Source: Psychrosphaera sp. F3M07 (GTDB taxonomy: Bacteria > Pseudomonadota > Gammaproteobacteria > Enterobacterales > Alteromonadaceae). From it: DNA of 63,232 bases. This document shows, piece by piece, positions 4,451 to 35,059 of the stretch. The stretch is from NCBI RefSeq assembly GCF_018860345.1, contig NZ_JAHKPJ010000001.1:3112-66343 (forward strand), given 5' to 3'. The translations under genes were made by a program, and so were the position numbers. The stretch's first letter is position 1. Every line of letters starts with the position of its first letter. Under the pieces are notes generated by a model, which saw only the letters and a list, made by a program, of their open reading frames with translations, made no database searches and was not told the DNA's origin.

Positions 4451-5431
4451 TTATTGATTATGGTAGTCTAGGCAAATTTTAACTTCTTGTTTAGAGCCTA
4501 AAATAACAGGGACTCGTTGATGCAATTCTGTTGGTTGAATATCTAATATATTTTGTTCACCGGTCGATACTAAGCCACCAGCTTGTTCAATCAATAAACC
4601 CATAGGATTCGCTTCATATAACAATCTTAGTTTATTTGGTTTGCTTAAGTCGTCGGTGTGAGCTGGATAAGTAAATAAACCACCTCGACATAAAATTCTG
4701 TGTACATCACCTACCATGCAAGCCACCCAGCGCATATTAAAGTTTTTACCTCTAATCCCGCCTTTGCCATCCAAAATATCGCGAATATAACGTTGCATTG
4801 GGATTTGCCACTTGTGCTGATTAGAGGCGTTAATCGCAAACTCTTGCGTTTCTTCAGGTACTTCAATGCGTTCTTGTGTTAACAAGAACGATCCATGGGT
4901 TTTATCTAGTGTATAAAACTTCACACCTTTCCCGGTGGTTAACGCCAAGATAGTCGATGGGCCATACATTACATACCCAGACGCAACTTGATTACGTCCC
5001 GGCTGTAAAAAGTCAGATTCGGTGATGGCATCACCGGCTAATTTTTCATCCGGCACGGGTAAGATAGAGAAGATAGTACCAGTTAAACTGTTTACGTCTA
5101 TATTTGAGCTGCCATCCAATGGATCAAACGCAACTAAGAAACGTCCCCCGTGCACACCTTCTACAATAAAGTCTTCTTCTTCTGATGCGATTGCTCTGAC
5201 AAAACCAGACTCAAGTAACATGTCTTTTAATAATTGATTGGATAATACATCGAGTTTTTTCTGGGTCTCACCTTGAATATTCTCATCTAACGTTGAGCCT
5301 AAAACACCCGCTAGATCAGCTTGGCCTACCCGGAATGAAATATCTTTACATGCAGCCAAAATTGTACGAATTAACGAAATTAAATCGAGTTCTACACCAT
5401 CTTCACGTAATACCGGAGCTAATCTACGCAT
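4451..5431 (-). CDS. fbp: Fructose-1,6-bisphosphatase class 1
   Basis: 326 aa, close to the family's usual 330. It hydrolyses fructose 1,6-bisphosphate to fructose 6-phosphate, the committed gluconeogenic step, in the cytosol. Metal-binding and catalytic motifs: ASEEE at 82-86 and [11 protein letters not shown] at 102-112. Later conserved segments [16 protein letters not shown] and the C-terminal EQAGG region are also present. Single gene with its own terminator, diverging from the metalloprotease gene. Together with ppc later in the window it fits growth on non-sugar carbon. Confidence 0.95.
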
Positions 5432-5570
5432 AACTTAACGTCACCTTTTTTATTAATTGGAGAATAATTATAAATAATGTTTAGGCGCTTACTTTACAGT
5501 ATTCAAGATGCTTTTGCATGTGCATAAGTTGAACAAACTGAAAACTTTCATAGTGAATTACATAATAAAT

Positions 5571-5594
5571 TGTTTACAGTTAGTCACTGTTTAC
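5571..5594. promoter_or_regulatory. Repeats in the fbp/metalloprotease divergent gap
   Basis: The 298-bp gap 5432-5729 has no gene. It contains TGTTTAC twice (5571-5577 and 5588-5594) on the same strand, and between them ACAGT-N5-ACTGT as an inverted repeat (5576-5590). This could be a regulator site for either divergent gene, but no specific regulator can be named. Confidence 0.25.
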
Positions 5595-5729
5595 TTTGAT
5601 GAAATACTAATTTTGCGGTATGAACAACCATAAATCACTATTCCCATAAACCGGCTAATCAGGCACACTTAAAATACGATTAAAGGTAATTAACAATTTA
5701 CCGCACATTGCAAAAAATGGAGTACCAAG

Positions 5730-8126
5730 ATGGTGACTGCGATTAAGTTTTTCGGATTCATTTTGCTTTTAGTATCAGGCCAATTAATGGCAAAAGATAT
5801 CACTAGCTTTACTAAAGGCATGAAAGAAGGAAAAGGATTTTTTACTTTTTATTATGATGAAAACAAGGATAAAGTTTACTTAGACGTAGATAAATTATCA
5901 CAACCATTTTTATTCCAAAGCTCTATGCCTCAAGGGATAGGTTCCAATGACATTGGACTTGATAGAGGCCAATTGGGCGATACTCGTATTGTGCAATTTG
6001 AGCGTTATGGCAATAAGGTGTTATTAAATCAACTAAATACCTATTACCAAGCTAAATCCCAAAATGCGGCAGAAAGGCAAAGTGTTAAAGAAGCCTTTGC
6101 AGAGTCGGTAATTCAAGGTTTTACCATTGTTAGCCAAGATGACGATTCGGTACTAATTGATTACACGTCATTTCTATTAAGTGACATACACGGTATTAGT
6201 CGTAGTTTAGCGGCCGGTAAACAAGGTAACTTTTCGTTAGACAGTTCACGTAGCGCTGTCTTCATGCCTCGCAGCAAAGCATTCCCAAAAAATACAGAGT
6301 TGGAGTCCGTCGTCAGCTTTAAAGGCAGTTCACCAGGTAAACATGTCAAAAGTGTTGCGCCTGATCCATATAATATTACCGTGCATTTACACCACTCGCT
6401 GATTGAACTTCCAGATGATAATTATCAACCAAGAGCGTTCCACCCTTATTCAGGATTTTGGAGTGTAGAAACCAAAGATTACGCAGTGAGTCTAGATGAA
6501 GATATGGCTGTTAAATATATTCCACGCCATCGTTTACACAAAAAAAATCCTACGGCAGAAAGAAGTGAAGCGATAGACCCTATTATTTATTATCTCGACC
6601 CTGGTGCGCCTGAGCCTGTGCGTTCAGCATTATTAGATGGTGCAAGGTGGTGGAGTAGCGCATTTGAGAAAGCTGGTTTTATCAATGCCTTTCAAGTGAA
6701 AATGTTACCTGAAGATGCTGACCCTATGGATGTGCGTTACAACACAATTCAGTGGGTACACAGAGCCACTCGCGGTTGGAGTTATGGCTCGTCGGTTATT
6801 GACCCAAGAACCGGTGAGATTCTTAAAGGTCATGTTACCTTAGGTTCATTGCGCGTTCGCCAAGATTATTTGATTGCTCAAGGGTTAACGGCACCGTTTA
6901 CTTCGGATAATGCTGATACCAGTGCAATCAAAGAAATGGCGTTGGCACGTATTCGCCAGTTATCGGCTCACGAAGTAGGCCACACTTTAGGTATCGCTCA
7001 TAACTTCTCAGCTTCAGTGAATAACCGCGCTTCGGTCATGGATTACCCTCACCCATTAGTGACAATTAAAGACGGCAAAATTGATTTATCTAATGCCTAT
7101 GACGACAAAATAGGTGTGTGGGATGAATATGTAATTAAATATGGTTACAGCCAATTTTCAGATAACAACACCGAGCAACAACAGCTCGCGTCATTAGTGG
7201 CCAGTACCAAACAACAAGGTTTCTTATATATGTCTGATCCGGACGCGCGCCCATTAAGTGGTGCGAATCCAGAGGGGCACTTATGGGATAACGGTGACAA
7301 TCCAGCCGTTGAATTGGAACGAATGTTAGACGTACGTAAGTTAGCACTTAATAACTTTGGACTTGATAATTTAGCTAGTGGTAGAGATGTATCTGACTTG
7401 CAAGAGATCTTAATTCCTATCTACTTATTTCATCGCTTTCAAACCACAGCTGCGGCAAAAGTTATTGCAGGTGTTGATTATAGTTATCAAGTTAAATCGG
7501 ATAATGAACTAGGTGCAAAAGCAGTCAATTTTGACCAGCAGCAACAAGCACTAAATGCTATTTTACGCACATTAACCCCTCAGGAACTGGTTATTCCAAA
7601 ACATATTGTTGAGCTTATTCCGCCAAAATCATACGGTTCTTATCGCAACAGAGAAAGTGCGCCAAGTAAAACTGGATTGGTGTTCGACCCGATTGAACTG
7701 GCGTCTGCCTCCGCCCAACATTCGTTAAATGCGTTGTTAAATCCGGCTAGGTTAAATCGAATTTCTCAACAAGTAGCATTGCATTCAGAGACACCTACTT
7801 GGTCTTTACCTTTGTATTTAACTCAAATTATTAACGCAACCGTCAAAGCAGATTCAGACGCTGGAGTTAACCACCTATTACATAAAAGAGTCGCGGCCTT
7901 AACCATAGAATCGTTAATGAAGACCTTATTAAACGAACAGACATCGATAGAAGTGAAAGCTGAAATCTTTGAATCTTTACATGAGTTAAATACTTGGTTG
8001 TCCTCATACTCTAGAAAAAACAGCTTTAATAACTTACTTAGCTATCATTTAGCTTGGTATTTTGAGCATAGAAAGTGGTTGCCATTAATTAAACCGACAG
8101 CAATGCCACCGGGTTCACCTATTTAA
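5730..8126 (+). CDS. Secreted zinc-dependent metalloprotease (DUF5117/DUF4953 type)
   Basis: 798 aa. An N-terminal signal peptide (about 1-21, ending near LMA-KD) targets it to the periplasm or outside. The metzincin zinc site HEVGHTLGIAHN is at 414-425, supplying three His ligands and the catalytic Glu, and SVMDYPHP just downstream fits the Met-turn. The architecture (DUF5118/DUF5117 N-terminal region, zincin in the middle, alpha-helical C-terminal region) matches the family annotated as zinc-dependent metalloprotease in Alteromonadales and Bacteroidetes. Substrate unknown. The gap of 156 bp to mpl suggests an independent unit. Confidence 0.85.
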   Translation: MVTAIKFFGFILLLVSGQLMAKDITSFTKGMKEGKGFFTFYYDENKDKVYLDVDKLSQPFLFQSSMPQGIGSNDIGLDRGQLGDTRIVQFERYGNKVLLNQLNTYYQAKSQNAAERQSVKEAFAESVIQGFTIVSQDDDSVLIDYTSFLLSDIHGISRSLAAGKQGNFSLDSSRSAVFMPRSKAFPKNTELESVVSFKGSSPGKHVKSVAPDPYNITVHLHHSLIELPDDNYQPRAFHPYSGFWSVETKDYAVSLDEDMAVKYIPRHRLHKKNPTAERSEAIDPIIYYLDPGAPEPVRSALLDGARWWSSAFEKAGFINAFQVKMLPEDADPMDVRYNTIQWVHRATRGWSYGSSVIDPRTGEILKGHVTLGSLRVRQDYLIAQGLTAPFTSDNADTSAIKEMALARIRQLSAHEVGHTLGIAHNFSASVNNRASVMDYPHPLVTIKDGKIDLSNAYDDKIGVWDEYVIKYGYSQFSDNNTEQQQLASLVASTKQQGFLYMSDPDARPLSGANPEGHLWDNGDNPAVELERMLDVRKLALNNFGLDNLASGRDVSDLQEILIPIYLFHRFQTTAAAKVIAGVDYSYQVKSDNELGAKAVNFDQQQQALNAILRTLTPQELVIPKHIVELIPPKSYGSYRNRESAPSKTGLVFDPIELASASAQHSLNALLNPARLNRISQQVALHSETPTWSLPLYLTQIINATVKADSDAGVNHLLHKRVAALTIESLMKTLLNEQTSIEVKAEIFESLHELNTWLSSYSRKNSFNNLLSYHLAWYFEHRKWLPLIKPTAMPPGSPI

Positions 8127-12308: not shown

Positions 12309-13931
12309 GTGACCAATTTAAAGAATTTAAGTGTATTTATAAAAGTAAATGTCATCACCGTCATTGCTATGCTTGCGTTGATCACGGTCTTAATCTTAAA
12401 CGCACTTGCTATCAGTGAAAATAATAAGAGCCTTGATGAGCTAAAAGACAAACGCTACCTTATTGCTCAATATTCTACGGCTAACTCATTTATCATCAAT
12501 AGAATTGATGAACGTTACACCCAAGCCGTGACTTTTGGGGATGAAGATTTAATTACCTCCGCCGGTGAACAGTACAACCTATTAATTGAAAACATTGAAA
12601 AAATAGAATCATTAGATAACCCATCTAATTCACGTTTATTAGAAAAGTTTAAATCCGACTTACAAAGCTATAACGTAATTGCGAAAGACATCGTAAAAGG
12701 GTTTATTAATGAGTCATTAGACTTCTCCGTAATTCAGCAGAAATCCAAAGTTAAAGCTGACCTATACGAAAATATCAACAAAGCCTTAGACGAATACAAA
12801 AAACAATCAGACGACTTATACTCAAAAATGGCTGATGATGCTAAAGCACGATCTGAAGATGCAATTACCCAAAGTATTATTATCTCGATTGTTCTGACCA
12901 TATTAATCATCTTATTGGGTTATATAATCGGTACCAATATTCGTAAAGCCGCATCAGATGCTGCTGCAACATTAAGTGAATTAGCGGAAGGTGAAGGCGA
13001 TTTAAAATCTCGGTTAAACGTCGACAGTGAAGATGAAATTGGTCAGTTAGCCATTAACTTTAATAAGTTTATGGAAGTGTTACGCGGTGCTATCAGTGAT
13101 GTAATGTCGGTTGTACAACCGCTGTTAGATAACTCTACTCGTCTTATACAACGCATGGAAACGGCTGAATCTGCAATGCACAAACAAAGTGAAGATTCGG
13201 AACTTGTTAATCAATCAATGCAAGAAATGCATCATAGCGTTAATGAGATATCAAATTCTGCAGCTTTAGCCTCTCAAGCAACTAGCGATGCTGATTTAGA
13301 AGCCAAACAAAGTTTAGAAATATTGAGCCAGTCAATGGCCGTCTCTCAAGCGCTTAATAATGAAATTAAAGGGGCATCTGCGGTTGTTCATCAATTGGCT
13401 CAAGATACTCAAAATGTGAATAAAATATTAGATGTAATCACCTCGATTGCGGAACAAACCAATTTATTAGCGTTAAATGCAGCTATTGAAGCCGCGCGAG
13501 CTGGTGAACAAGGCCGAGGGTTTGCAGTTGTTGCAGATGAAGTTAGGGAATTGGCATCAAGAACATCAAAATCAACTACTGAAATTCGTGAGTTATTAAA
13601 TGCACTAACTGAAGCGGCAAGCGCATCGGTTGACTCAATGGAAAGTGCCAGTGCTCAAGCAGAACGTAATGAAGAGTATGCAGCACAAACCGGTGACTCG
13701 GTTAAGAAAATTGCAGAACACATCAACACTATCAATGGCATAAACTCTCAGGTTGCAACGGCCACTGAACAGCAAACAGCTGTAACTACTACTGTTGTTG
13801 AAAACGTGAATGATATGAACGAATCCATTAGTTCAACATTAGAAGCGCTTAGCGGTATCCGAGATGTATCAAGTAACTTACATACATTGTCAGACGACTT
13901 GTTAGAAGCGGCTTCTAAATTTAAATTATAA
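12309..13931 (+). CDS. Methyl-accepting chemotaxis protein
   Basis: 540 aa. Membrane segment about 14-35, a helical periplasmic sensor domain about 36-187 (four-helix-bundle type), second membrane segment 189-208, HAMP domain about 209-262 and a long cytoplasmic signalling coiled coil. The conserved hairpin tip around [18 protein letters not shown] (about 383-402) contacts CheA and CheW. No CheR-binding pentapeptide is seen at the C-terminus (ends SKFKL). GTG start at 12309 with GAGG upstream. Ligand unknown. Confidence 0.9.
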
Positions 13932-13954
13932 AACATGAAAATGGACAAAAAGAA

Positions 13955-13978
13955 GATCACTTGATGTGGTCTTTTTTT
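13955..13978 (+). terminator. Intrinsic terminator of the chemoreceptor gene
   Basis: GATCAC (13955-13960) pairs with GTGGTC (13966-13971) with one wobble pair, flanked by A-rich and T-rich sides and followed by seven T residues (13972-13978). Confidence 0.75.
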
Positions 13979-14018
13979 ATGTCTGAAAAATATATTTAAG
14001 GTTGGAGGATAAGTATTG

Positions 14019-14034
14019 AATTAAACGTTTGATG
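14019..14034. promoter_or_regulatory. Weak candidate PurR operator upstream of purC
   Basis: The palindromic core AAACGTTT (14023-14030) matches the centre of the PurR consensus, but flanking positions fit poorly (about one in four on each side). It lies about 75 bp before the purC start, a sensible place. Treat as tentative. Confidence 0.25.
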
Positions 14035-14103
14035 CCCACTAAAGGAATTTGCTAGAATCCTCAGCATTAAACATCCCGCATATTTCTTACTTTAGGAAGC
14101 CCA

Positions 14104-15207
14104 ATGAGCTTAGCTAACTCGGTTTTGGCCGTAAACAACGACCTACCTATTATTACAGATCAAAAAGTTCACAGTGGAAAAGTCCGTTCTGTGTATTGGT
14201 TAACGGCTAAAGACAGTAAACGACTGATTGAACAAAATGGCTACAACGTTCAATCTGACGCCCCGCTAGCGATTATGGTCATCAGTGACCGTATCTCTGC
14301 ATTTGATTGCATCTGGCACGGTGAAGGTGGTATTAAAGGCGTTCCTGGCAAAGGTGCAGCATTAAATGCAGTGTCAAATCACTGGTTTAAAATGTTTAAA
14401 GATAACGATTTAGCGGATAGCCATATTTTAGACATCCCGCATCCTTTTGTTTGGATTGTGCAAAAAGCCAAACCAGTAATGATCGAAGCGATCGCTCGTC
14501 AATATATAACTGGCTCAATGTGGCGCAGTTACGAAAAAGGCGAACGTGAATTTTGTGGTATTCAATTACCTGAAGGACTAACTAAAGACCAGAAGTTAGA
14601 CGACATATTAATTACCCCTTCAACTAAAGGTATTTTAAAAGGCATACCAAATGTGCCAGAAGCGGACGATGTTAATATTCGTCGCCAAGATATCATCGAA
14701 AACTATCAAGCCTTTAATTTCTTAGACAAAACCGATGTTGATAAGTATGAAGTATTATTAAAACAAGGCTTCAACTTAATCAGTGGGGCATTAGCTAAAT
14801 TAGACCAAATCTTTGTCGATACTAAATTTGAATTTGGCTATGTAAAAGATGCGGCTGGTAACGACAAGCTTATTTATATGGATGAAGTGGGTACACCAGA
14901 TTCATCTAGAATATGGGATGGCCCTAATTTTAGAAACGGAAAAGTTGTGGAAAACTCTAAAGAAGGGTTTAGACAAATGTTACTTAACCACTTCCCTGAT
15001 CCAGACATATTGCTAAATAAAAATAGAATGCCGGAACGTGAAGCATTAGCTCGTGATAACGCTTTACCTGAATCTGTAATTATGGATATCTCATCTACCT
15101 ACTTGAATATTGCCGAGAAAATCACAGGCAGTAAAATTGTATTATCCGATAATCCAAAACAAGAGGTTATTGACGTATTAGCAGAGCGATATCAATTGAT
15201 AAAATAA
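14104..15207 (+). CDS. purC: Phosphoribosylaminoimidazole-succinocarboxamide synthase
   Basis: 367 aa, the long SAICAR synthase form of Shewanella, Vibrio and Pseudoalteromonas rather than the about 237-aa E. coli type. It condenses CAIR with aspartate using ATP in purine synthesis. Early segment [13 protein letters not shown] (about 59-71), the [14 protein letters not shown] region, [16 protein letters not shown] and [12 protein letters not shown] are all characteristic. Single gene with its own promoter region and terminator. ATG at 14104 follows AGGAAGCCC. Confidence 0.93.
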
Positions 15208-25953: not shown

Positions 25954-27249
25954 CTATCTGCGATCGAAGCTAAACTTCACTTCTGGCACGAGTTCATTAG
26001 ATAAATTTCTCGGTGTCGTGAAAAACTCAACGTCTAATTTATCAGCTTGATTATCTAAATTGATATGAGCAAATCCCCAAACAAAACTCTTAGACCATAA
26101 TAAATCATACTCTGGGTAACGCTTTTCTTGTTGTTCTGCAAAAGGTGTATGTTTACCACGCATTTTAGACGCGGCTCCACTAATAATAAGCGGTAGTGGT
26201 GGACGCGTATTACCCGGTAAATAAACCGAACAATCATCGGTTAACAACTCTAAGTCATGTTCGTGCCCAGCAATATAAGCATCTGCATATTCACATAACA
26301 TAGGCATTAGACGCTCACGCAATACATGTCCTTCACTGTATTTAGTACCACCAATTGACCATAAAATGTGATGCCCATAAACTATCTTCCATTTAGCGGT
26401 AGAGTTAGCCAACCCTTTTGTTAACCACTCAATTTGTACGATATCTTCACCATTTACTGGGTTTTCATGTGGCTCTGCCACTTCAAGTTCACCAATACCT
26501 TTAAGCTTTGCTTCCGCTAATTCCATTTCACTGCCATCTGGATTTAATGGAATTTCATAGATAGGTTTTGCCGATAACAACATATTGGTATCTAACACAA
26601 AAAACTCAACATCATTGCCCGGTTGGCCTATTTTGTATTGGTAATAACCTTTGGCATCTAAGTAAAAGTTTGGTTGTTCTGCCATCCAATTGGTTTGCAA
26701 CTCAACACCTCGGCGTGAGCTTTTCCAATCATGGTTACCTAATGCTGAATACACCACTAGATCTGGGTTCTCAGCAAACAATGGTAATAAAGGTTTTAAG
26801 ATCAAATCGTCCATGCGTTTTTGATCGTCTTTACCGTCTTTGGCATCCGCGCCATCTGGATAGACATTATCACCAAGCTGTAAGGCAAATTCACACTCGC
26901 GAGTCTGGCATAATTTAGCCATGGCAATTCCAACAGCGGACGCACCGGTCATTTCCGTGGCTATCTCTGTATTAGGGTAAATATAGATAGGCGCGTGATC
27001 AAATTCTTCAATCGGTCGATAGTCTTCTAACCAGTCTTCAATTTCTTTTTTTATAAATTGTTCTTTATTTCTTGGATTTTCAATGTGTTTTTTCTTTGGG
27101 TAATCGGGATGATAACCACCGTCACCAAAAGCTAAAAAAGAGATGTTATTGCTCTCAATTTGGGCCGCTGGTTGTTCAATTTTGTTATTACAAGCCGCTA
27201 ATAAACAACTCATCACTAAACTGATACAAAATGCTTTATTTATTTTCAT
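25954..27249 (-). CDS. Metallophosphoesterase lipoprotein (purple-acid-phosphatase-like)
   Basis: 431 aa. Lipoprotein signal with lipobox LLAAC (C20). Metal-binding motifs in order: GDGG (42-45), GDNVYPDGAD, GNHDW, YGHH and AGHEHDLE. This is the calcineurin-like set arranged as in tartrate-resistant acid phosphatases. It should release phosphate from organic esters at the cell envelope. It follows the TonB receptor by 64 bp on the same strand, with a stem-loop between them. Upstream Pho-box-like sites support a phosphate-scavenging role. Confidence 0.88.
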   Translation of the reverse strand: MKINKAFCISLVMSCLLAACNNKIEQPAAQIESNNISFLAFGDGGYHPDYPKKKHIENPRNKEQFIKKEIEDWLEDYRPIEEFDHAPIYIYPNTEIATEMTGASAVGIAMAKLCQTRECEFALQLGDNVYPDGADAKDGKDDQKRMDDLILKPLLPLFAENPDLVVYSALGNHDWKSSRRGVELQTNWMAEQPNFYLDAKGYYQYKIGQPGNDVEFFVLDTNMLLSAKPIYEIPLNPDGSEMELAEAKLKGIGELEVAEPHENPVNGEDIVQIEWLTKGLANSTAKWKIVYGHHILWSIGGTKYSEGHVLRERLMPMLCEYADAYIAGHEHDLELLTDDCSVYLPGNTRPPLPLIISGAASKMRGKHTPFAEQQEKRYPEYDLLWSKSFVWGFAHINLDNQADKLDVEFFTTPRNLSNELVPEVKFSFDRR

Positions 27250-27313: not shown

Positions 27314-30109
27314 CTAAAGAGAATTAATTGTGATGCCAAATTCAAACGTACGGCCGTATTGCTCATACTGATAATTATATTTAGCGACACCGTGGTATAA
27401 ATACATAGGTTCGTCAGTCAGATTCGATGCATTAAAATAGACTTGCACTGAATCAGAGAAATGGTACTTACTGCTAAAATCTAACTGAGTGTGATCATCT
27501 TGAAATACACCTACATCGTTTTCATCAAACTGGTATACCTTGCTCTTATAACTTGCACTTAAGCGAGTACTAAAGCTGTTATTTTCAAAACCAATCATGA
27601 TGTTGCCTATGGTATCTGATTGATTAGGTAAGCCGGCATCCGCATCTACAAACGTGCTATTCGCACCTAGCAACAATCCAGAATCAAAGGTTTTATTCCA
27701 CGCTAACTCAACGCCAGTTAATGATGCTGCTCCACCATTAATTGGTTGGATAACCTCATCAAAACCATCCCATTGCCCATTGTCTTGTACTTCACTAAAT
27801 ACAATATAATTATCTATGTCTTTATAAAATATACCTGCCGACAAGACGCCGATATAACCAGGGTAATAATGTAGCGACAAATCCAAATTTTGTGACTCAT
27901 AAGGGTCTAAATCTGGATTGCCCACTTCCGCCTTACGTTCGGTTTCTATCTCGCCATCGTCTTCAGTTACTTCCGTTTCAATTAACTGGAATGCAGCTGA
28001 ATCTTCAAAGGTTGGACGCGCAATGGTTTGTGTATATGCAAAACGTGCAATTAACTTATCACTCGCGGCATACTTAACATTTAAGCTAGGTAAAAAGTAA
28101 TTGTAGTCTTTAGCTACTTTCCAAGGGTCAATAGACACACTTTCATCATCATTTATTTCATCAACTAATAAAGCAACTTTGTTACCTTGGGTTTCAAACT
28201 CACTGCCTTCATAACGAAGTCCAGTTATAAACTGCCACTTATCAACATCTAAACTCACCATGGCATAAGCGGCTAATACATCTTCACTGCTGTTATAAGA
28301 GTTACCCAAGGTTTCAATGTCTGACTCCAATTGGTTAAAGTCGAAGTTACTCTTATTGGCATTTACAAACTGTTGAATCCCAGTACGTGATAACCCATCA
28401 CCAAACTCACCTAAGCTGTAATCAACCAAGCCACTATTAAAGTCTTCTGCTGTGGCATCAATAAAATCACCATCATATATGCTTGCTGAAACACTATTTA
28501 GTTTTTCACGACTACGATATTTACCACCAAATTTAAATTCACCGCGGTTGTTATTCCAAATAAAGCTTTTAGTAATATCTAAACGAAAACTAACTTCTTC
28601 ATCTTCTGCTAAGTTATTTTCATAAACCACTTCATCCATTTCATAATTGGCTAAATCATGGGCATTGGCCGATTGCGTTAATTGAGGGATTTGACCAGAC
28701 GTTAAATAGCCTAAATCGAACTCTTCACCCGCAAAAACAACATCTAAACGAGTCGGCTCTTGTTCAGTTGATTTAGAATAGCCAACTTGATATTCAACAA
28801 ACAAAGTATCTAGTTGATGTTCGCCACCAACAACCACAGAGGTAATTTTTTGCGTCTCAAATCTGTCTTTAGTATCACGCTCCATTTCTGCATCTTTATA
28901 CATAGCCGAAGTATCTGAATGAGTGCTTAAGTCAATTGCGCCTTTATCAAACTTATAAACATTTCTAAGACGATATTCATCATCTGAAAACTCACTAAAA
29001 AAGCTGCGTAAATAAAAGCTATCTGTCACTGAAGTTCGTAGATCTAAATTAAGAGCGACACCTGTGCGTTCACGTTCAATTTGATATTGGCGTTGTTCTA
29101 TCTCTTCCGTGCCAAAAACCTCAACGTCATCACCTGTTGCAGCATCTTCAACTTCCACGTCAATCCAGCCGCCACCAGTTTCCATATTTTCTGAACCAAA
29201 CTCACGTTTAAGCCAAGAGAATGCACCAGCAACACCTAATTCATAACCGTTATTAAGAACAAAAACGTCTGAGTAACTGCCTGACAATTTAGGACTAGCC
29301 GCCTCTTCTAATTCATTATATGAACCTTGTGCGGTGACAGAATAAGACTGACCTTCGCGGTCAAAGGCGCTTAAGCTTTTAACTTCGATTGAACCACCAA
29401 CTGCGTTAGCATCCATATCTGGTGTAACGGTTTTACTGACTTCAAGGCTTGAGATCAGTTCACTTGGAATAACATCCATAGCAACACTACGAACGCCCGC
29501 TTCTGGTGAAGGTACATTTAACCCATTAATCGTAACGTTGTTTAAGTTTGGGTCTATGCCACGTATTGCCACAAAACGGCCTTCGCCTTGGTCACGTTGA
29601 ATTGAAAGGCCAGGTAAGCGTTGCAACGCTTCTGCTGCGTTTTGATCTGGTAATTGACCAATTGAATCTGCGCTGACTACTGATATTAATCGATTCGCAT
29701 TTTTCTGACGGTTTAACGCACCAGCTTGTCCAGCGCGTTGTCCATATACGATTAAGTTTTCAACGCCTTTTTTATCTGAGCCAATTACATAGTTTTTAGT
29801 TAACTTATTTTCGTCCGACACTATCAAGGTTTTACGAACGTCTGGCACACCAACATAACTAATGATCAATGTATATTGACCTTTGGGTAACTTGCCAAAA
29901 TGAAATGAACCATCACGTTTACTAATTGTAGTTAAGTTCAGTTCTTCAATCGTTATTTTTGCGCCTTCAAAATAAACACTGTTTTTTGCGTCGGTAATAC
30001 GTCCCGACAAATCAGTGTTGGCTAGGGCTGCTGAAGAAGTCAACGCAATTGCGCTGATCAAAGCGGTATTTAAAATCGACAGTTTAAATATTCCGTTTTT
30101 ATTTTTCAT
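27314..30109 (-). CDS. TonB-dependent receptor (TonB-Xanth-Caul type) with carboxypeptidase-regulatory-like domain
   Basis: 931 aa. Signal peptide about 1-30; a carboxypeptidase-regulatory-like beta-sandwich about 31-110 (DLSGRITDAKNS...); plug domain about 130-260 including QNAAEALQRLPGLSIQ and FVAIRGIDPNLNNVTINGL; then a 22-strand barrel ending EFGITINSL, with the terminal hydrophobic residue usual for outer-membrane insertion. It imports a substrate using TonB energy. Followed by the phosphatase lipoprotein. With the Pho-box-like site upstream, a phosphorylated organic ligand is likely by inference. Confidence 0.92.
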   Translation of the reverse strand: MKNKNGIFKLSILNTALISAIALTSSAALANTDLSGRITDAKNSVYFEGAKITIEELNLTTISKRDGSFHFGKLPKGQYTLIISYVGVPDVRKTLIVSDENKLTKNYVIGSDKKGVENLIVYGQRAGQAGALNRQKNANRLISVVSADSIGQLPDQNAAEALQRLPGLSIQRDQGEGRFVAIRGIDPNLNNVTINGLNVPSPEAGVRSVAMDVIPSELISSLEVSKTVTPDMDANAVGGSIEVKSLSAFDREGQSYSVTAQGSYNELEEAASPKLSGSYSDVFVLNNGYELGVAGAFSWLKREFGSENMETGGGWIDVEVEDAATGDDVEVFGTEEIEQRQYQIERERTGVALNLDLRTSVTDSFYLRSFFSEFSDDEYRLRNVYKFDKGAIDLSTHSDTSAMYKDAEMERDTKDRFETQKITSVVVGGEHQLDTLFVEYQVGYSKSTEQEPTRLDVVFAGEEFDLGYLTSGQIPQLTQSANAHDLANYEMDEVVYENNLAEDEEVSFRLDITKSFIWNNNRGEFKFGGKYRSREKLNSVSASIYDGDFIDATAEDFNSGLVDYSLGEFGDGLSRTGIQQFVNANKSNFDFNQLESDIETLGNSYNSSEDVLAAYAMVSLDVDKWQFITGLRYEGSEFETQGNKVALLVDEINDDESVSIDPWKVAKDYNYFLPSLNVKYAASDKLIARFAYTQTIARPTFEDSAAFQLIETEVTEDDGEIETERKAEVGNPDLDPYESQNLDLSLHYYPGYIGVLSAGIFYKDIDNYIVFSEVQDNGQWDGFDEVIQPINGGAASLTGVELAWNKTFDSGLLLGANSTFVDADAGLPNQSDTIGNIMIGFENNSFSTRLSASYKSKVYQFDENDVGVFQDDHTQLDFSSKYHFSDSVQVYFNASNLTDEPMYLYHGVAKYNYQYEQYGRTFEFGITINSL

Positions 30110-30188
30110 TTTTATTCTCGTTTTTATTCGAAGTTAAGTGCGTATTAATGTGAGTTGTTGTTAATCGCGGCTAACCTAAACAATGAAA

Positions 30189-30206
30189 GTGACAGAAATA
30201 TTTCAG
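30189..30206 (-). promoter_or_regulatory. Pho-box-like site upstream of the TonB receptor
   Basis: Read on the minus strand: CTGAAAT-ATTT-CTGTCAC, against the PhoB consensus CTGTCAT-N4-CTGTCAT. The first half matches five of seven, the second six of seven (C is tolerated at the last position). It lies about 80 bp before the receptor start. Ten bases further, TAGGTT is a poor -10 element. Confidence 0.5.
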
Positions 30207-30355
30207 TCGATTTTGACGATGGAGAAACTAGCTATTTTTAACCAGTTTAAAACTAGTTCAAGGGCCAATTGAGCTGATTTGACCCTCATACAAGGTCGAT
30301 GAATATCGACAAATAGGCTTAACATTCAACACATAAAAGTTAATCCCACGATTTG

Positions 30356-30389
30356 TTTTCATAAAACTGTCATTAGCGTGAGCTAATAT
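30356..30389 (+). promoter_or_regulatory. Pho box with -10 element upstream of the GGDEF gene
   Basis: TTTTCAT-AAAA-CTGTCAT (30356-30373) matches the PhoB box with five of seven and seven of seven positions and the usual A-rich 4-bp spacer. TAATAT (30384-30389) starts 10 bp after the box, the spacing of PhoB-dependent promoters where the box replaces the -35. Predicted transcription starts near 30396, giving a leader of about 58 nt. The rest of the 344-bp gap 30110-30453 holds the second site and no gene. Confidence 0.6.
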
Positions 30390-30453
30390 GACCCTACTTT
30401 AAAAGAACGGTTTCACTATGATGCTGTAAAACCGTTAACTAAATATAAAGTTT

Positions 30454-31380
30454 ATGAATTTATCCTTTTTAAAATTTCATCGTCATTTGTTTTTCATTTT
30501 ACTGGTGGTTATCACGACTATCGTTGGTTTCACAGCACATATTGGTGAGCTAAAGCCGATTGTGGATTTAGATCTATTTGATGCAGCTGGTGAAGGTGGT
30601 ATTACCTTAATGACCTTAGTATGGATATTTTTTATCTTGATAAGCCGTCCAGCTGGCAAAGTGACCACGCTGTTATTTATGGGGTTAACCTTAACTCATG
30701 TATCTATGTTGCTGGATTTCATAGATGAGTTTTATGTTTACCCTGACAACAATACTTGGATAACCACCATTGAATCTTTACCTGCGCCAGTAGGGATGGT
30801 GATCATGTCTTTTGCTTTGTATTTGTGGCACCAAGAGCAGATGACCATAAACACACAACTGCGCAATACCGAACGTTATTACCGAGACCATAGTTTAACG
30901 GACTATATAACCGGACTTTACAGCGCCAAATATATGAAAGATCAATTGCAGCGTGAGATATCGAATGCGGCTATTCACCAAGAATCGTTTTCTGTGATGT
31001 TAATCGACATTCGTAAATTTGATCGTTTTAATCGTGAATATGGCGATCAGCAAGGTGATATTTTATTAAGAGAAACCGCACAAGTTATTTTGATGAACTT
31101 AAGAGATGAAGATTTAGCCTGTCGATACGCCAGTGACCGATTTATCATTTTAATGCCAAATACCAGTATTCAAAATTCAGAAACATTAGCGGCTCAAATA
31201 GAACATTCTATTGCCAATTTGGCCTTTAAAGTCGGTAAGTCTACGAGCGCTAAATATCAACATGTCGCCAGTTGTGTGATGCAGTTTGATGGCAATGACG
31301 ATTACTTAACTATTTTAGAAAAGTTAAATGATCGGATGTTGGCAACTAAACATCATTTAAACAGTAAAGATGTGGCCTAA
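30454..31380 (+). CDS. Membrane protein with degenerate GGDEF domain
   Basis: 308 aa. Four membrane segments (about 11-29, 48-64, 71-87, 111-126), a short linker helix, and a GGDEF-like domain about 140-300. The first metal Asp is kept (LIDIRKFDRFN, about 184-193), but the active-site GGDEF reads ASDRF (226-230), so diguanylate cyclase activity is unlikely. It may bind nucleotide or act as a sensor scaffold. The stop overlaps the start of the AraC-type gene by one base (TAATG). A Pho-box promoter lies upstream. Confidence 0.8.
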   Translation: MNLSFLKFHRHLFFILLVVITTIVGFTAHIGELKPIVDLDLFDAAGEGGITLMTLVWIFFILISRPAGKVTTLLFMGLTLTHVSMLLDFIDEFYVYPDNNTWITTIESLPAPVGMVIMSFALYLWHQEQMTINTQLRNTERYYRDHSLTDYITGLYSAKYMKDQLQREISNAAIHQESFSVMLIDIRKFDRFNREYGDQQGDILLRETAQVILMNLRDEDLACRYASDRFIILMPNTSIQNSETLAAQIEHSIANLAFKVGKSTSAKYQHVASCVMQFDGNDDYLTILEKLNDRMLATKHHLNSKDVA

Positions 31381-32414
31381 TGAAAACCTTTGAACGACAA
31401 GATGAAATTGTCCTTTGCAGACAGTTTGTTGTTGTTCTTGTTGATTTGGCGAAACAGAGTGGCGTGCATCCAGACAAAATTCTTAAAGGTACACGATGTT
31501 TCTATCAAGATTTAGAACAAGCTAACTTAACCATATCTACCGCAGAATACTTAACCATCATCGACAACACTCTACGCCTAACCAACCGTGATGATTTAAG
31601 TTTTATACTTGGTCGTAAATATTTTCCAAGCCAGCTAGGTCAATTATCCCAAGCGTTTTTAAACTGTAAAAACCTGCTTGAAATGTTGAAGTTATGTCAG
31701 TTATTTCAATTACAAATCTTTCCATTTTTATACATAGAAGTCGCAAAAACCGATAATAAAACCCATTTACTTTTCAACTCAGCAATTGGAGAAATATCCA
31801 CTAGTCAGCAAACGTTTTTATATGAATTTGTATTATCGGCCATGATCGGTGCGATAAAATATCGTTTTGGTGAATTAATCCCAATGACGATTAAACTGCC
31901 TTACAAACAAGTTGATTATATTGAACAATATCATGTGCACATTGGTAATAAAGTGAGTTTTGATCAGCAATTGGCAATGCTGACCATTGAGGACAAATAC
32001 TTAACACAAGCCTTACAAGACTGCAGTCAATCCCTTAAAAAGATTGCACTGCAAGATGCACGTATCATTAGAAAAGAAAAATATATGATTGGCTTTGTGC
32101 AAGCCGTCAGTCAATTTATCAGTACAAGATTGATAAACTATGATGTGAGTCTTGAACGTTGTGCTGTGTACTTTGCAATGAGTCCTGCAACGCTAAAAAG
32201 GAAATTAGCTCAACACAAAACCAGCTATCAGATATTATTGGATAAGATCCGCTGCCAACAAGCTATTTTTGCCATGATGGAACACCAATATAACAATGAA
32301 TATATTGCGCATCGATTGCAATTTAATGATGTGACTAATTTTAGGCGAGCATTTAAACGCTGGACGGGAATGACACCATCGGCATTTAGAGCAAGTTCAG
32401 CAGTATTAAGTTGA
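31380..32414 (+). CDS. AraC-family transcriptional regulator (OruR/ArgR-like)
   Basis: 344 aa. N-terminal AraC-type ligand-binding region (PF12625 type, about 20-205) and C-terminal double HTH (about 240-340), with CAVYFAMSPATLKRKL and the terminal FRRAFKRWTGMTPSAFRA signature. Cytosolic DNA-binding protein. Overlaps the GGDEF-like gene by one base, so the two are translated together; the membrane protein may feed a signal to it. Target genes are unknown. The divergent receptor/phosphatase unit is the nearest candidate. Confidence 0.88.
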   Translation: MKTFERQDEIVLCRQFVVVLVDLAKQSGVHPDKILKGTRCFYQDLEQANLTISTAEYLTIIDNTLRLTNRDDLSFILGRKYFPSQLGQLSQAFLNCKNLLEMLKLCQLFQLQIFPFLYIEVAKTDNKTHLLFNSAIGEISTSQQTFLYEFVLSAMIGAIKYRFGELIPMTIKLPYKQVDYIEQYHVHIGNKVSFDQQLAMLTIEDKYLTQALQDCSQSLKKIALQDARIIRKEKYMIGFVQAVSQFISTRLINYDVSLERCAVYFAMSPATLKRKLAQHKTSYQILLDKIRCQQAIFAMMEHQYNNEYIAHRLQFNDVTNFRRAFKRWTGMTPSAFRASSAVLS

Positions 32415-33840: not shown

Positions 33841-34566
33841 ATGGGTCCGACTATGCGTATGACAGAGGTTTTATCAGTTATTGATTTATCACCACATATG
33901 AGACGAATAATATTAACCGGAGACGCACTTGCCGATTTTCCAGAAGGAAAAGAAAGTGCTCATGTTAAAGCTATTTTTCCTAATCCTAATTCCGATAACA
34001 AAAAGCCTAAATTGGGGCTTTATTTAGGTTTCAAAAAATTCATGCGCTCATACACAATTAGAGCTTTTAATAAACAAAACCTAACATTGACTATCGACTT
34101 TGCCGTCAATGATCATCAAGGGTTAGCAAGTGACTGGGCATTAAACGCTAAACAAGGCGATTACTTAGGTATAGCAGGTCCAGGTGATCCTAAACACCCT
34201 GATTTATTGGCTGATAAACATTTATTTTTTGGTGATATCACGGCATTACCGGCCATCGCCACAACATTAGAAAAATTACCCGCCACGGCCGTTGGTCATG
34301 TTTATATTCAGGTTCCTGATGAACAAGATATCCAGCCTTTACTCAGCCCCAACTTAGTTGAAATTCATTGGCTTGTAACGGCGGATAAATTAACCGATGA
34401 GTTCTTAACTGGCCTAGTCTCGAGCGGGACTAATTTAATCGATACCGCAATATTTATAGCGGCAGAAGCCAGTGTGGTAAAACAGTTAAAAGATCACCTT
34501 AATACCCATTGCCAATATGATAAGTCTAAGCTCTATGCCAGTGCATATTGGAACAAAAAAAGATAA
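33841..34566 (+). CDS. Siderophore-interacting FAD-binding protein (ferric-chelate reductase family)
   Basis: 241 aa. SIP family related to ViuB/YqjH. The FAD-binding motif RSYTIR (about 69-74) sits in the N-terminal barrel, GIAGPGDPK follows, and the C-terminal NAD(P)H-binding SIP domain ends at SAYWNKKR. Relatives reduce ferric siderophores with NAD(P)H. Here it is in an operon with membrane proteins and no iron-box is seen, so the electron acceptor may differ. RBS AGGAGC precedes ATG 33841. Confidence 0.87.
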   Translation: MGPTMRMTEVLSVIDLSPHMRRIILTGDALADFPEGKESAHVKAIFPNPNSDNKKPKLGLYLGFKKFMRSYTIRAFNKQNLTLTIDFAVNDHQGLASDWALNAKQGDYLGIAGPGDPKHPDLLADKHLFFGDITALPAIATTLEKLPATAVGHVYIQVPDEQDIQPLLSPNLVEIHWLVTADKLTDEFLTGLVSSGTNLIDTAIFIAAEASVVKQLKDHLNTHCQYDKSKLYASAYWNKKR

Positions 34567-34594
34567 TTTAAACGAACAGAACAAGGGTAAGTTC

Positions 34595-35059
34595 ATGTCT
34601 AATTGGAAACAAAACCTTCACAAAACACGATATGTGATGGATGCCATTTTACTGATTAGTTTTATGTTGGTTTCTGCCCCTCAAGCGACAGGAATAGCAG
34701 TACACGAATGGGGGAGTTTGTTGTTTATCATCCCATTTTCAATTCATTTATTATTACACTGGGATTGGATAAAAAATAGTGCAAAACATTTAATATCAAA
34801 TATTTCCGCCAGACAGCGATTTAATATAATTTGGGATTATGCAATTTACCTGATGATGTTATTAGCTTTTGTCAGTGGTTTCTTGATTTCTATATCTCTG
34901 TTTCCTGCGTTAAATATAGAAATAAATATTCAAGATTTTTGGTCAAAAGTACACCATGACTCTGCCACTCTGTTAATGCCCATGTTAGGCATTCACTTAG
35001 CACTCAATTGGAGTTGGATAGTTAAGCTATCGAAACGTATGAGCCAGAGAGGAGAATAG
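34595..35059 (+). CDS. DUF4405 membrane protein (cytochrome b-like)
   Basis: 154 aa from the ATG at 34595 with AAGGGTAAG upstream; the longer open frame overlapping the previous gene is not needed. Four membrane helices carrying histidines at VHEWGS, HLLLHWDW, VHHDS and GIHLALNW, the pattern of DUF4405 proteins, predicted diheme b-type four-helix membrane cytochromes that occur with flavoproteins. Likely passes electrons across the inner membrane. Two bases separate it from the next gene. Confidence 0.78.
   Translation: MSNWKQNLHKTRYVMDAILLISFMLVSAPQATGIAVHEWGSLLFIIPFSIHLLLHWDWIKNSAKHLISNISARQRFNIIWDYAIYLMMLLAFVSGFLISISLFPALNIEINIQDFWSKVHHDSATLLMPMLGIHLALNWSWIVKLSKRMSQRGE

Follow-up and report, generated by a model that had tools for sequence, protein, structure and literature searches.

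A putative phosphate-starvation locus of Psychrosphaera with Pho boxes and a conserved operator repeat in one divergent promoter region

Which regulators act in the 344-bp gap of a divergent locus of Psychrosphaera sp. F3M07, and in response to what? To the left of the gap lie genes for a TonB-dependent receptor and a phosphatase-like lipoprotein, and to its right lie genes for a membrane protein with a GGDEF domain and an AraC-family regulator. The locus belongs to a 63,232-nucleotide stretch of contig NZ_JAHKPJ010000001.1, called the window below, whose coordinates we use throughout. An earlier note on this DNA had described a Pho-box-like site on each strand of the gap and had proposed that an importer and a phosphatase for organophosphate are induced by phosphate starvation together with the regulator pair. 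We find that both Pho boxes are conserved among relatives and that the gap also holds two copies of a 16-bp repeat, one of which adjoins a Pho box. With moderate confidence, we read the locus as one for the use of organic phosphate under phosphate starvation, in which two layers of control, PhoB and the AraC protein, would meet in a single divergent promoter region.

Pho boxes on both sides of the gap

Both sites are 7-4-7 direct repeats close to CTGTCAT, and the hexamer TAnnnT lies exactly 10 bp downstream of each, which is the distance from box to -10 element in E. coli Pho promoters. When the whole window was scanned on both strands with a half-site score that had been fixed beforehand from the E. 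coli consensus, the two sites ranked first (14.3, plus strand) and second (13.6, minus strand), the next site reaching 12.85; both stand where the earlier note had put them. The gap and its promoter elements are as follows.

30110-30453: gap between the divergent genes, 344 bp, separating the leftward receptor and phosphatase genes from the rightward GGDEF-AraC pair
30356..30373 (+): GGDEF-side Pho box, TTTTCAT-AAAA-CTGTCAT, the best-scoring site of the window
30384..30389 (+): proposed -10 element of the GGDEF-AraC promoter, TAATAT, 10 bp past the plus-strand box and within operator 2
30189..30206 (-): receptor-side Pho box, CTGAAAT-ATTT-CTGTCAC, the second-best site of the window, conserved
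30173..30178 (-): proposed -10 element of the receptor promoter, TAGGTT, 10 bp past its box and missing from the earlier note
30270..30285 (+): operator 1, TGAGCTGATTTGACCC, 63 bp upstream of the receptor Pho box
30379..30394 (+): operator 2, TGAGCTAATATGACCC, beginning 5 bp past the plus-strand Pho box and containing TAATAT

The strict pattern YTKTCATWWWWYTKTCAY has a single exact match in the 3.87-Mb genome, the plus-strand Pho box. With one mismatch allowed, the whole genome gives 15 matches against 16 for a reversed-pattern control, so the loose pattern is not enriched. Because these one-mismatch counts are so close, the genome scan alone is too weak to settle the status of the boxes; comparison among relatives settles it.

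We compared the gap in two sets of relatives. The first comprises 52 loci, namely the window's own locus, 11 others and 40 of the 113 GGDEF-bearing genomes of the family. The second comprises the best 80 of 207 relatives, among them Psychrosphaera (with P. saromensis the closest), Colwellia, Thalassotalea, Pseudoalteromonas, Alteromonas, Paraglaciecola, Bowmanella and Catenovulum; removal of 24 duplicates (gaps with identical 60-base ends) and of five loci without a receptor left 51 gaps, and some loci of this set come from the same species as loci of the first. Gene starts were assigned by rule and then corrected with BLAST, and the 121-bp gap of genome G024 was probably cut short.

Of the 52 gaps, 31 have a receptor-side box scoring at least 12.5, where 100 shuffles give a mean of 0.53 and at most 4; for a GGDEF-side box at the same threshold the count is 19 (mean 0.47, maximum 3). 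TAnnnT lies exactly 10 nt past the receptor-side box in 66 of the 73 gaps in which that box scores at least 12, and any other offset from 0 to 15 is found in at most 4. The comparison that the earlier note had advised thus upholds the boxes, which are conserved, exceed shuffled expectation and have the correct promoter geometry. That both boxes are chance matches, as the one-mismatch genome count might suggest, is scarcely credible given the shuffles, the fixed distance to the -10 element and the conservation across many genera; on the conservation and the shuffles we ruled chance out.

The genome encodes a PhoB ortholog that scores above the curated cut-off, as well as PstS, and similar Pho-type boxes lie upstream of both phoB and pstS. 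Open reading frames near these genes that also have upstream boxes may be pstC, a PhoU-like gene and a porin, as read from their positions and first residues only. At locus L077 a Pho-box-like site (position 13177, minus strand) lies upstream of a porin-like open reading frame beside phoB, perhaps a phosphate-induced porin.

A 16-bp repeat joined to a Pho box

A 16-bp repeat, TGAGCYNNNNTGACCC, that was absent from the earlier note became apparent in the first twelve gaps read, usually as two copies in the same direction. Of the 40 gaps fetched after the motif had been defined, 37 contain a copy agreeing at 11 or more of 12 positions (at least two copies in 19); so do 50 of the 51 further gaps (at least two in 43). 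The 52 gaps together hold 75 copies, a count that includes the twelve gaps that suggested the motif, as compared to 0.08 on average after shuffling. In the window's own genome the exact operator has two matches, both in this gap, and its control has none, and we therefore rejected the idea of a genome-wide operator regulon; a looser form, TGAGCYNNNWTGACC, matches the genome at a third place, C5:277318, where a lipoprotein gene of L078 begins.

Operator 2 and the plus-strand Pho box can be combined into one element, TGTCAY-N5-TGAGCY-N4-TGACC, which we sought in 295 genomes of the family. There are 54 exact matches. Of these, 53 precede the matched part of the GGDEF gene by 54-260 bp, and one lies away from the locus in a locus-bearing genome; the 182 genomes without the GGDEF gene have none. 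Allowing one mismatch adds 28 matches, 6 at the locus, 8 elsewhere in locus-bearing genomes and 14 in genomes without the locus. These findings bear on a simpler possibility, that PhoB alone runs both promoters, that the TGAGC repeats are the sites of another factor and that the AraC protein acts elsewhere. The Pho boxes would suffice for control by phosphate, and the case for AraC binding comes from linkage. However, exact copies of the composite element occur almost exclusively at the GGDEF-AraC locus (53 of 54) and never in the 182 genomes that lack it, and within the window's genome the exact operator is confined to this gap, for which reasons a dedicated local regulator fits and we consider control by PhoB alone unlikely.

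The earlier note had placed TAATAT 10 bp downstream of the plus-strand box, which we confirm; it had overlooked the conserved operator-like repeat around TAATAT and the second copy in the gap. At its first spacer base, operator 2 carries a conserved A (1.9 bits, as compared to 0.4 bits in operator 1), and this A is the second base of TAATAT. That the conserved A is specific to operator 2 supports the presence of a -10 element inside it.

The start of the best plus-strand Pho box precedes that of operator 2 by exactly 23 nt in 27 of 42 gaps with the main layout and in 33 of the 51 further gaps. From the receptor-side box to operator 1 the distance is 52-54, 63-65, 72-73 or 84-85 in 79 of 79 gaps in which that box scores at least 12 (34 of 39 gaps in the first set and 45 of 49 in the second), and distances from operator 1 to operator 2 cluster at 85-88, 97-100, 108-110, 118-120 and 129-130. 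Rayleigh values at 10.5 bp are 0.91 for the former distance and 0.76 for the latter, with rough probabilities, calculated on distinct spacing values, of 0.004 and 0.007; because the gaps are related, we claim no probability beyond these rough ones. The spacings thus appear to step by about one helical turn, which would keep operator 1 on one face of the helix. A second promoter layout is seen in nine loci (L054, L055, L116, L117, L126, L131, L138, L144 and L145), where adjoining inverted operator copies replace the two distant direct copies.

The regulator pair and the enzyme behind the receptor

The genes on either side of the gap have the identities that the earlier note had given them, as domain matches show (a TIGR01782 TonB receptor, a calcineurin-like phosphatase, a GGDEF protein and an AraC protein with PF12625).

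25954..27249 (-): purple-acid-phosphatase-like lipoprotein, 431 amino acids, PF00149; second gene behind the receptor promoter
27314..30109 (-): TonB-dependent receptor, 931 amino acids, TIGR01782, PF00593, PF07715 and PF13715
30454..31380 (+): membrane protein with a degenerate GGDEF domain, motif ASDRF, 308 amino acids, PF00990
31380..32414 (+): AraC-family regulator with a PF12625 N-terminal domain, 344 amino acids, PF12625 and PF12833

The start of araC overlaps the stop of the GGDEF gene, and the linkage of the two genes is widespread. Of the 295 family genomes, 113 contain a single match to the GGDEF protein at E <= 1e-40; they represent 24 of 52 genera, so the combination that had been called uncommon is not so within the family. 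AraC follows GGDEF in 52 of 52 loci and in 80 of the best 80 of 207; the receptor adjoins the pair divergently in 51 of 52 (at one of these, L135, with a receptor of only 22% similarity) and in 75 of those 80, two of the five misses falling at a contig end.

The predicted structure of the GGDEF protein combines an N-terminal bundle of long helices with a GGDEF fold (mean predicted local distance difference test score 84.3, predicted template modelling score 0.53), and its best matches in the PDB are cyclases, PleD among them. An active cyclase that couples phosphate hunger to an output of cyclic di-GMP (c-di-GMP) would agree with this fold, with PF00990 and with the first metal-binding Asp, which is kept in 48 of 52 orthologs. 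However, the fourth position of the GGDEF motif lacks an acidic residue in all 52, which have R, C, K or Q instead, and the signature GG(D/E)(D/E)F occurs in none of them. A working cyclase is therefore unlikely; with the motif degenerate in 52 of 52 we rejected an active enzyme, and regard one as very improbable. The RxxD I-site, whose position we take from PleD, is kept in 51 of 52. A probable role of the membrane protein is to modulate the AraC protein, which it may do as a c-di-GMP receptor.

The AraC protein combines PF12625 at its N terminus with a C-terminal double helix-turn-helix domain (PF12833 and PF00165), and the most similar protein elsewhere in the genome shares 24% identity with it. 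Signals for it and its membrane partner may be the substrate, inositol or c-di-GMP.

The lipoprotein behind the receptor has a lipobox, LAAC, in its sequence and matches a purple acid phosphatase of the PDB, 1ute (E 1.2e-12). It carries the motifs GDGG, GDNVY, GNHD, VYGHH and GHEH, which correspond to the purple acid phosphatase signatures (GDxG, GDxxY, GNH(D/E), VxxH and GHxH), and all five are present in 12 of 12 enzymes of this type, the window's included. By motifs and PDB match, then, the enzyme is purple-acid-phosphatase-like, with a predicted activity. Several loci (among them L048, at 5245-6222, and L050, at 13559-14521) have a further, shorter calcineurin-like phosphatase between receptor and phytase, again with all five motifs.

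Among relatives the usual enzyme in this place is a beta-propeller phytase. BLAST labels the enzyme a phytase at 40 of the 52 loci and as the window's type at 12; PF02333 bears out the phytase label for 39 of the 40 (8 and 31 in two profile checks), and at the remaining one, L138, there is no receptor and its genome, G266, has no PF02333 match. Among the best 80 of 207 relatives there are 48 phytases, 25 enzymes of the window's type and 7 loci with neither. Across the 295 genomes, 94 of 99 with a phytase carry the GGDEF gene and 94 of 113 with the GGDEF gene carry a phytase somewhere (Fisher p about 1e-50, with genomes that are not independent); in some, G241 among them, the locus itself has the window's enzyme and the phytase is encoded elsewhere. 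On receptor trees of 50 of the 52 loci (L135 and L138 were left out) the enzyme label needs three changes, two of them forced by well-supported branches, and phytases and purple-acid-phosphatase-like enzymes have thus been exchanged at least twice behind related receptors.

It is quite improbable, in our view, that the same control serves a cargo without phosphate, such as an iron chelate or a sugar, with the phosphatase incidental. Receptors of this class serve many substrates, according to the part of PMC3400609 that we cite, and the window's own genome has no phytase. However, the promoters are of the phosphate type, and a phytase or purple-acid-phosphatase-like gene lies behind the receptor in 73 of the best 80 of 207 relatives and, by BLAST label, in 52 of 52 loci (the label at L138 was not borne out). 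Taken together, such neighbours and the conserved Pho boxes make an organophosphate importer plus phosphatase under phosphate control the best reading; this part of the earlier proposal is supported by comparison, with promoter geometry in its favour, and the claim of rarity falls within the family. The substrate is probably an organic phosphate, with inositol phosphates or a similar phosphomonoester as the likeliest candidates.

Two neighbourhoods apart from this locus are recorded here. L058 (G000:C27:226000-245500) is a cluster of TonB-ExbB-ExbD, DUF3450, chemoreceptor and TonB-receptor genes with several upstream Pho-box-like sites (minus strand 8442, 10511, 12134 and 15003), and perhaps serves to energise such receptors under phosphate control. 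In the window itself, a siderophore-interacting flavoprotein followed by a DUF4405/cytochrome-b561-like membrane protein (33841-35059) is perhaps an iron-reductase pair.

Proposed control and known systems

From the sites, their geometry and conservation, the gene linkage and the degenerate active site, all of which are present in the sequence, we infer a scheme that assigns binding to PhoB and AraC, a sign to each effect, a substrate, a response to phosphate and a role to the GGDEF protein. PhoB would bind the 7-4-7 box in each promoter, replacing the -35 element, and would drive the receptor and the purple-acid-phosphatase-like lipoprotein leftward and the GGDEF-AraC pair rightward. The AraC protein would bind the two TGAGCYNNNNTGACCC copies. 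A regulator site over a -10 element makes repression likely; because operator 2 covers the -10 element of the AraC protein's own promoter, binding there would probably exclude RNA polymerase and lead to auto-repression. From operator 1, which lies some 64 bp upstream of the Pho box of the receptor promoter, the AraC protein would act on the receptor promoter with either sign, through contact with the PhoB-polymerase complex or through a loop to operator 2. The GGDEF membrane protein, unlikely to be a cyclase, would probably modulate the AraC protein.

Several observations, in addition to the one-mismatch count given above, weigh against this scheme. Conservation of the AraC protein rises only slightly from the N-terminal part (mean majority fraction 0.40) to the C-terminal part (0.47). 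In 60 relatives the exact operator has 31 matches, 13 in these gaps and 18 elsewhere, as compared to 23 control matches; outside the locus it is thus at background, so that it is assigned to the AraC protein by linkage alone. The fixed distance of the plus-strand box is not universal (27 of 42 and 33 of 51), operator 1 is absent from 3 of the 42 main-layout gaps, and 10 of the 52 loci, with short or odd gaps, lack the main layout and were set aside, nine of them being those with inverted copies. Nine gaps with a weaker receptor-side box were dropped from the spacing count (distances 54, 64, 73, 32 and 54 in the first set; 73, 127, 64 and 21 in the second), and three of these (32, 127 and 21) are off the series; distances between the operators include outliers at 134 and 135 and a scatter at 140-170. 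Finally, the window's genome has no PF02333 match, so that a phytase beside the receptor is a feature of relatives and the window's substrate may differ from theirs.

As possible rather than probable, we put forward a wider version of the scheme, a two-input switch for organic phosphate that is widespread in marine bacteria. The sites of PhoB and of a dedicated AraC protein would adjoin at a fixed distance of 5 bp, with the AraC site carrying the -10 element of the AraC protein's own promoter and a helically phased second site setting the receptor promoter; the dead-GGDEF protein would feed the status of c-di-GMP or of the substrate to the AraC protein, and phosphate hunger and the second signal would both be needed.

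Parts of this picture are already known: TonB receptors beside phytases, a phytase-receptor pair induced by low phosphate, and regulation by PhoB of TonB receptors as well as of a phytase. In the excerpts that we draw on, phytase-TonB receptor gene pairs are described in Citromicrobium, with phytate-type phosphate proposed as a phosphorus source for coastal bacteria (PMC3400609), and both members of the Flavobacterium johnsoniae pair Fjoh_1367/1368 are induced by phosphate depletion (PMC8115612). These pairs likewise set a receptor beside an enzyme that releases phosphate, whereas here the enzyme is purple-acid-phosphatase-like and the locus has in addition a divergently oriented GGDEF-AraC pair and two operators in the promoter region. 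The Caulobacter PhoB regulon includes PhoB-dependent TonB receptors, phosphatases and a phytase, and the cited part of that report mentions neither AraC nor a composite element (PMC11208175). The terms AraC family, GGDEF and phytase occur together in one paper, on glycoside hydrolases (PMC5457731). Searches of titles and abstract starts in the open-licence literature gave no description of the arrangement, of the GGDEF-AraC pair, of the operator or of the composite element. E. coli Pho promoters share the 7-4-7 direct repeat (PMC4415409), with the same unit, spacing and position, whereas here an adjoining 16-bp operator covers the -10 element on one side.

What the locus adds is a defined regulatory unit, consisting of a 16-bp operator, its composite with a Pho box, and a GGDEF-AraC pair that accompanies phytase in 94 of 99 genomes. 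The composite element can serve as a direct search pattern for such loci, and comparison of the loci shows exchange of phytase and purple-acid-phosphatase-like enzymes behind related receptors.

Degenerate-GGDEF receptors of c-di-GMP such as PelD have membrane helices, a dead catalytic motif and a retained RxxD. The GGDEF protein of the window shares all three and may bind c-di-GMP; it differs in being encoded in an operon with an AraC regulator. The araC-araBAD system has a divergent promoter, a regulator beside its targets, two distant operators, helical phasing and control by CRP. The locus described here resembles it in its divergent promoter, in an AraC-type regulator beside its putative targets, in two distant putative operators and in an apparent helical phasing with outliers, and differs from it in having PhoB boxes in place of CRP control, a regulator of another subfamily (PF12625) and a loop that is only proposed.

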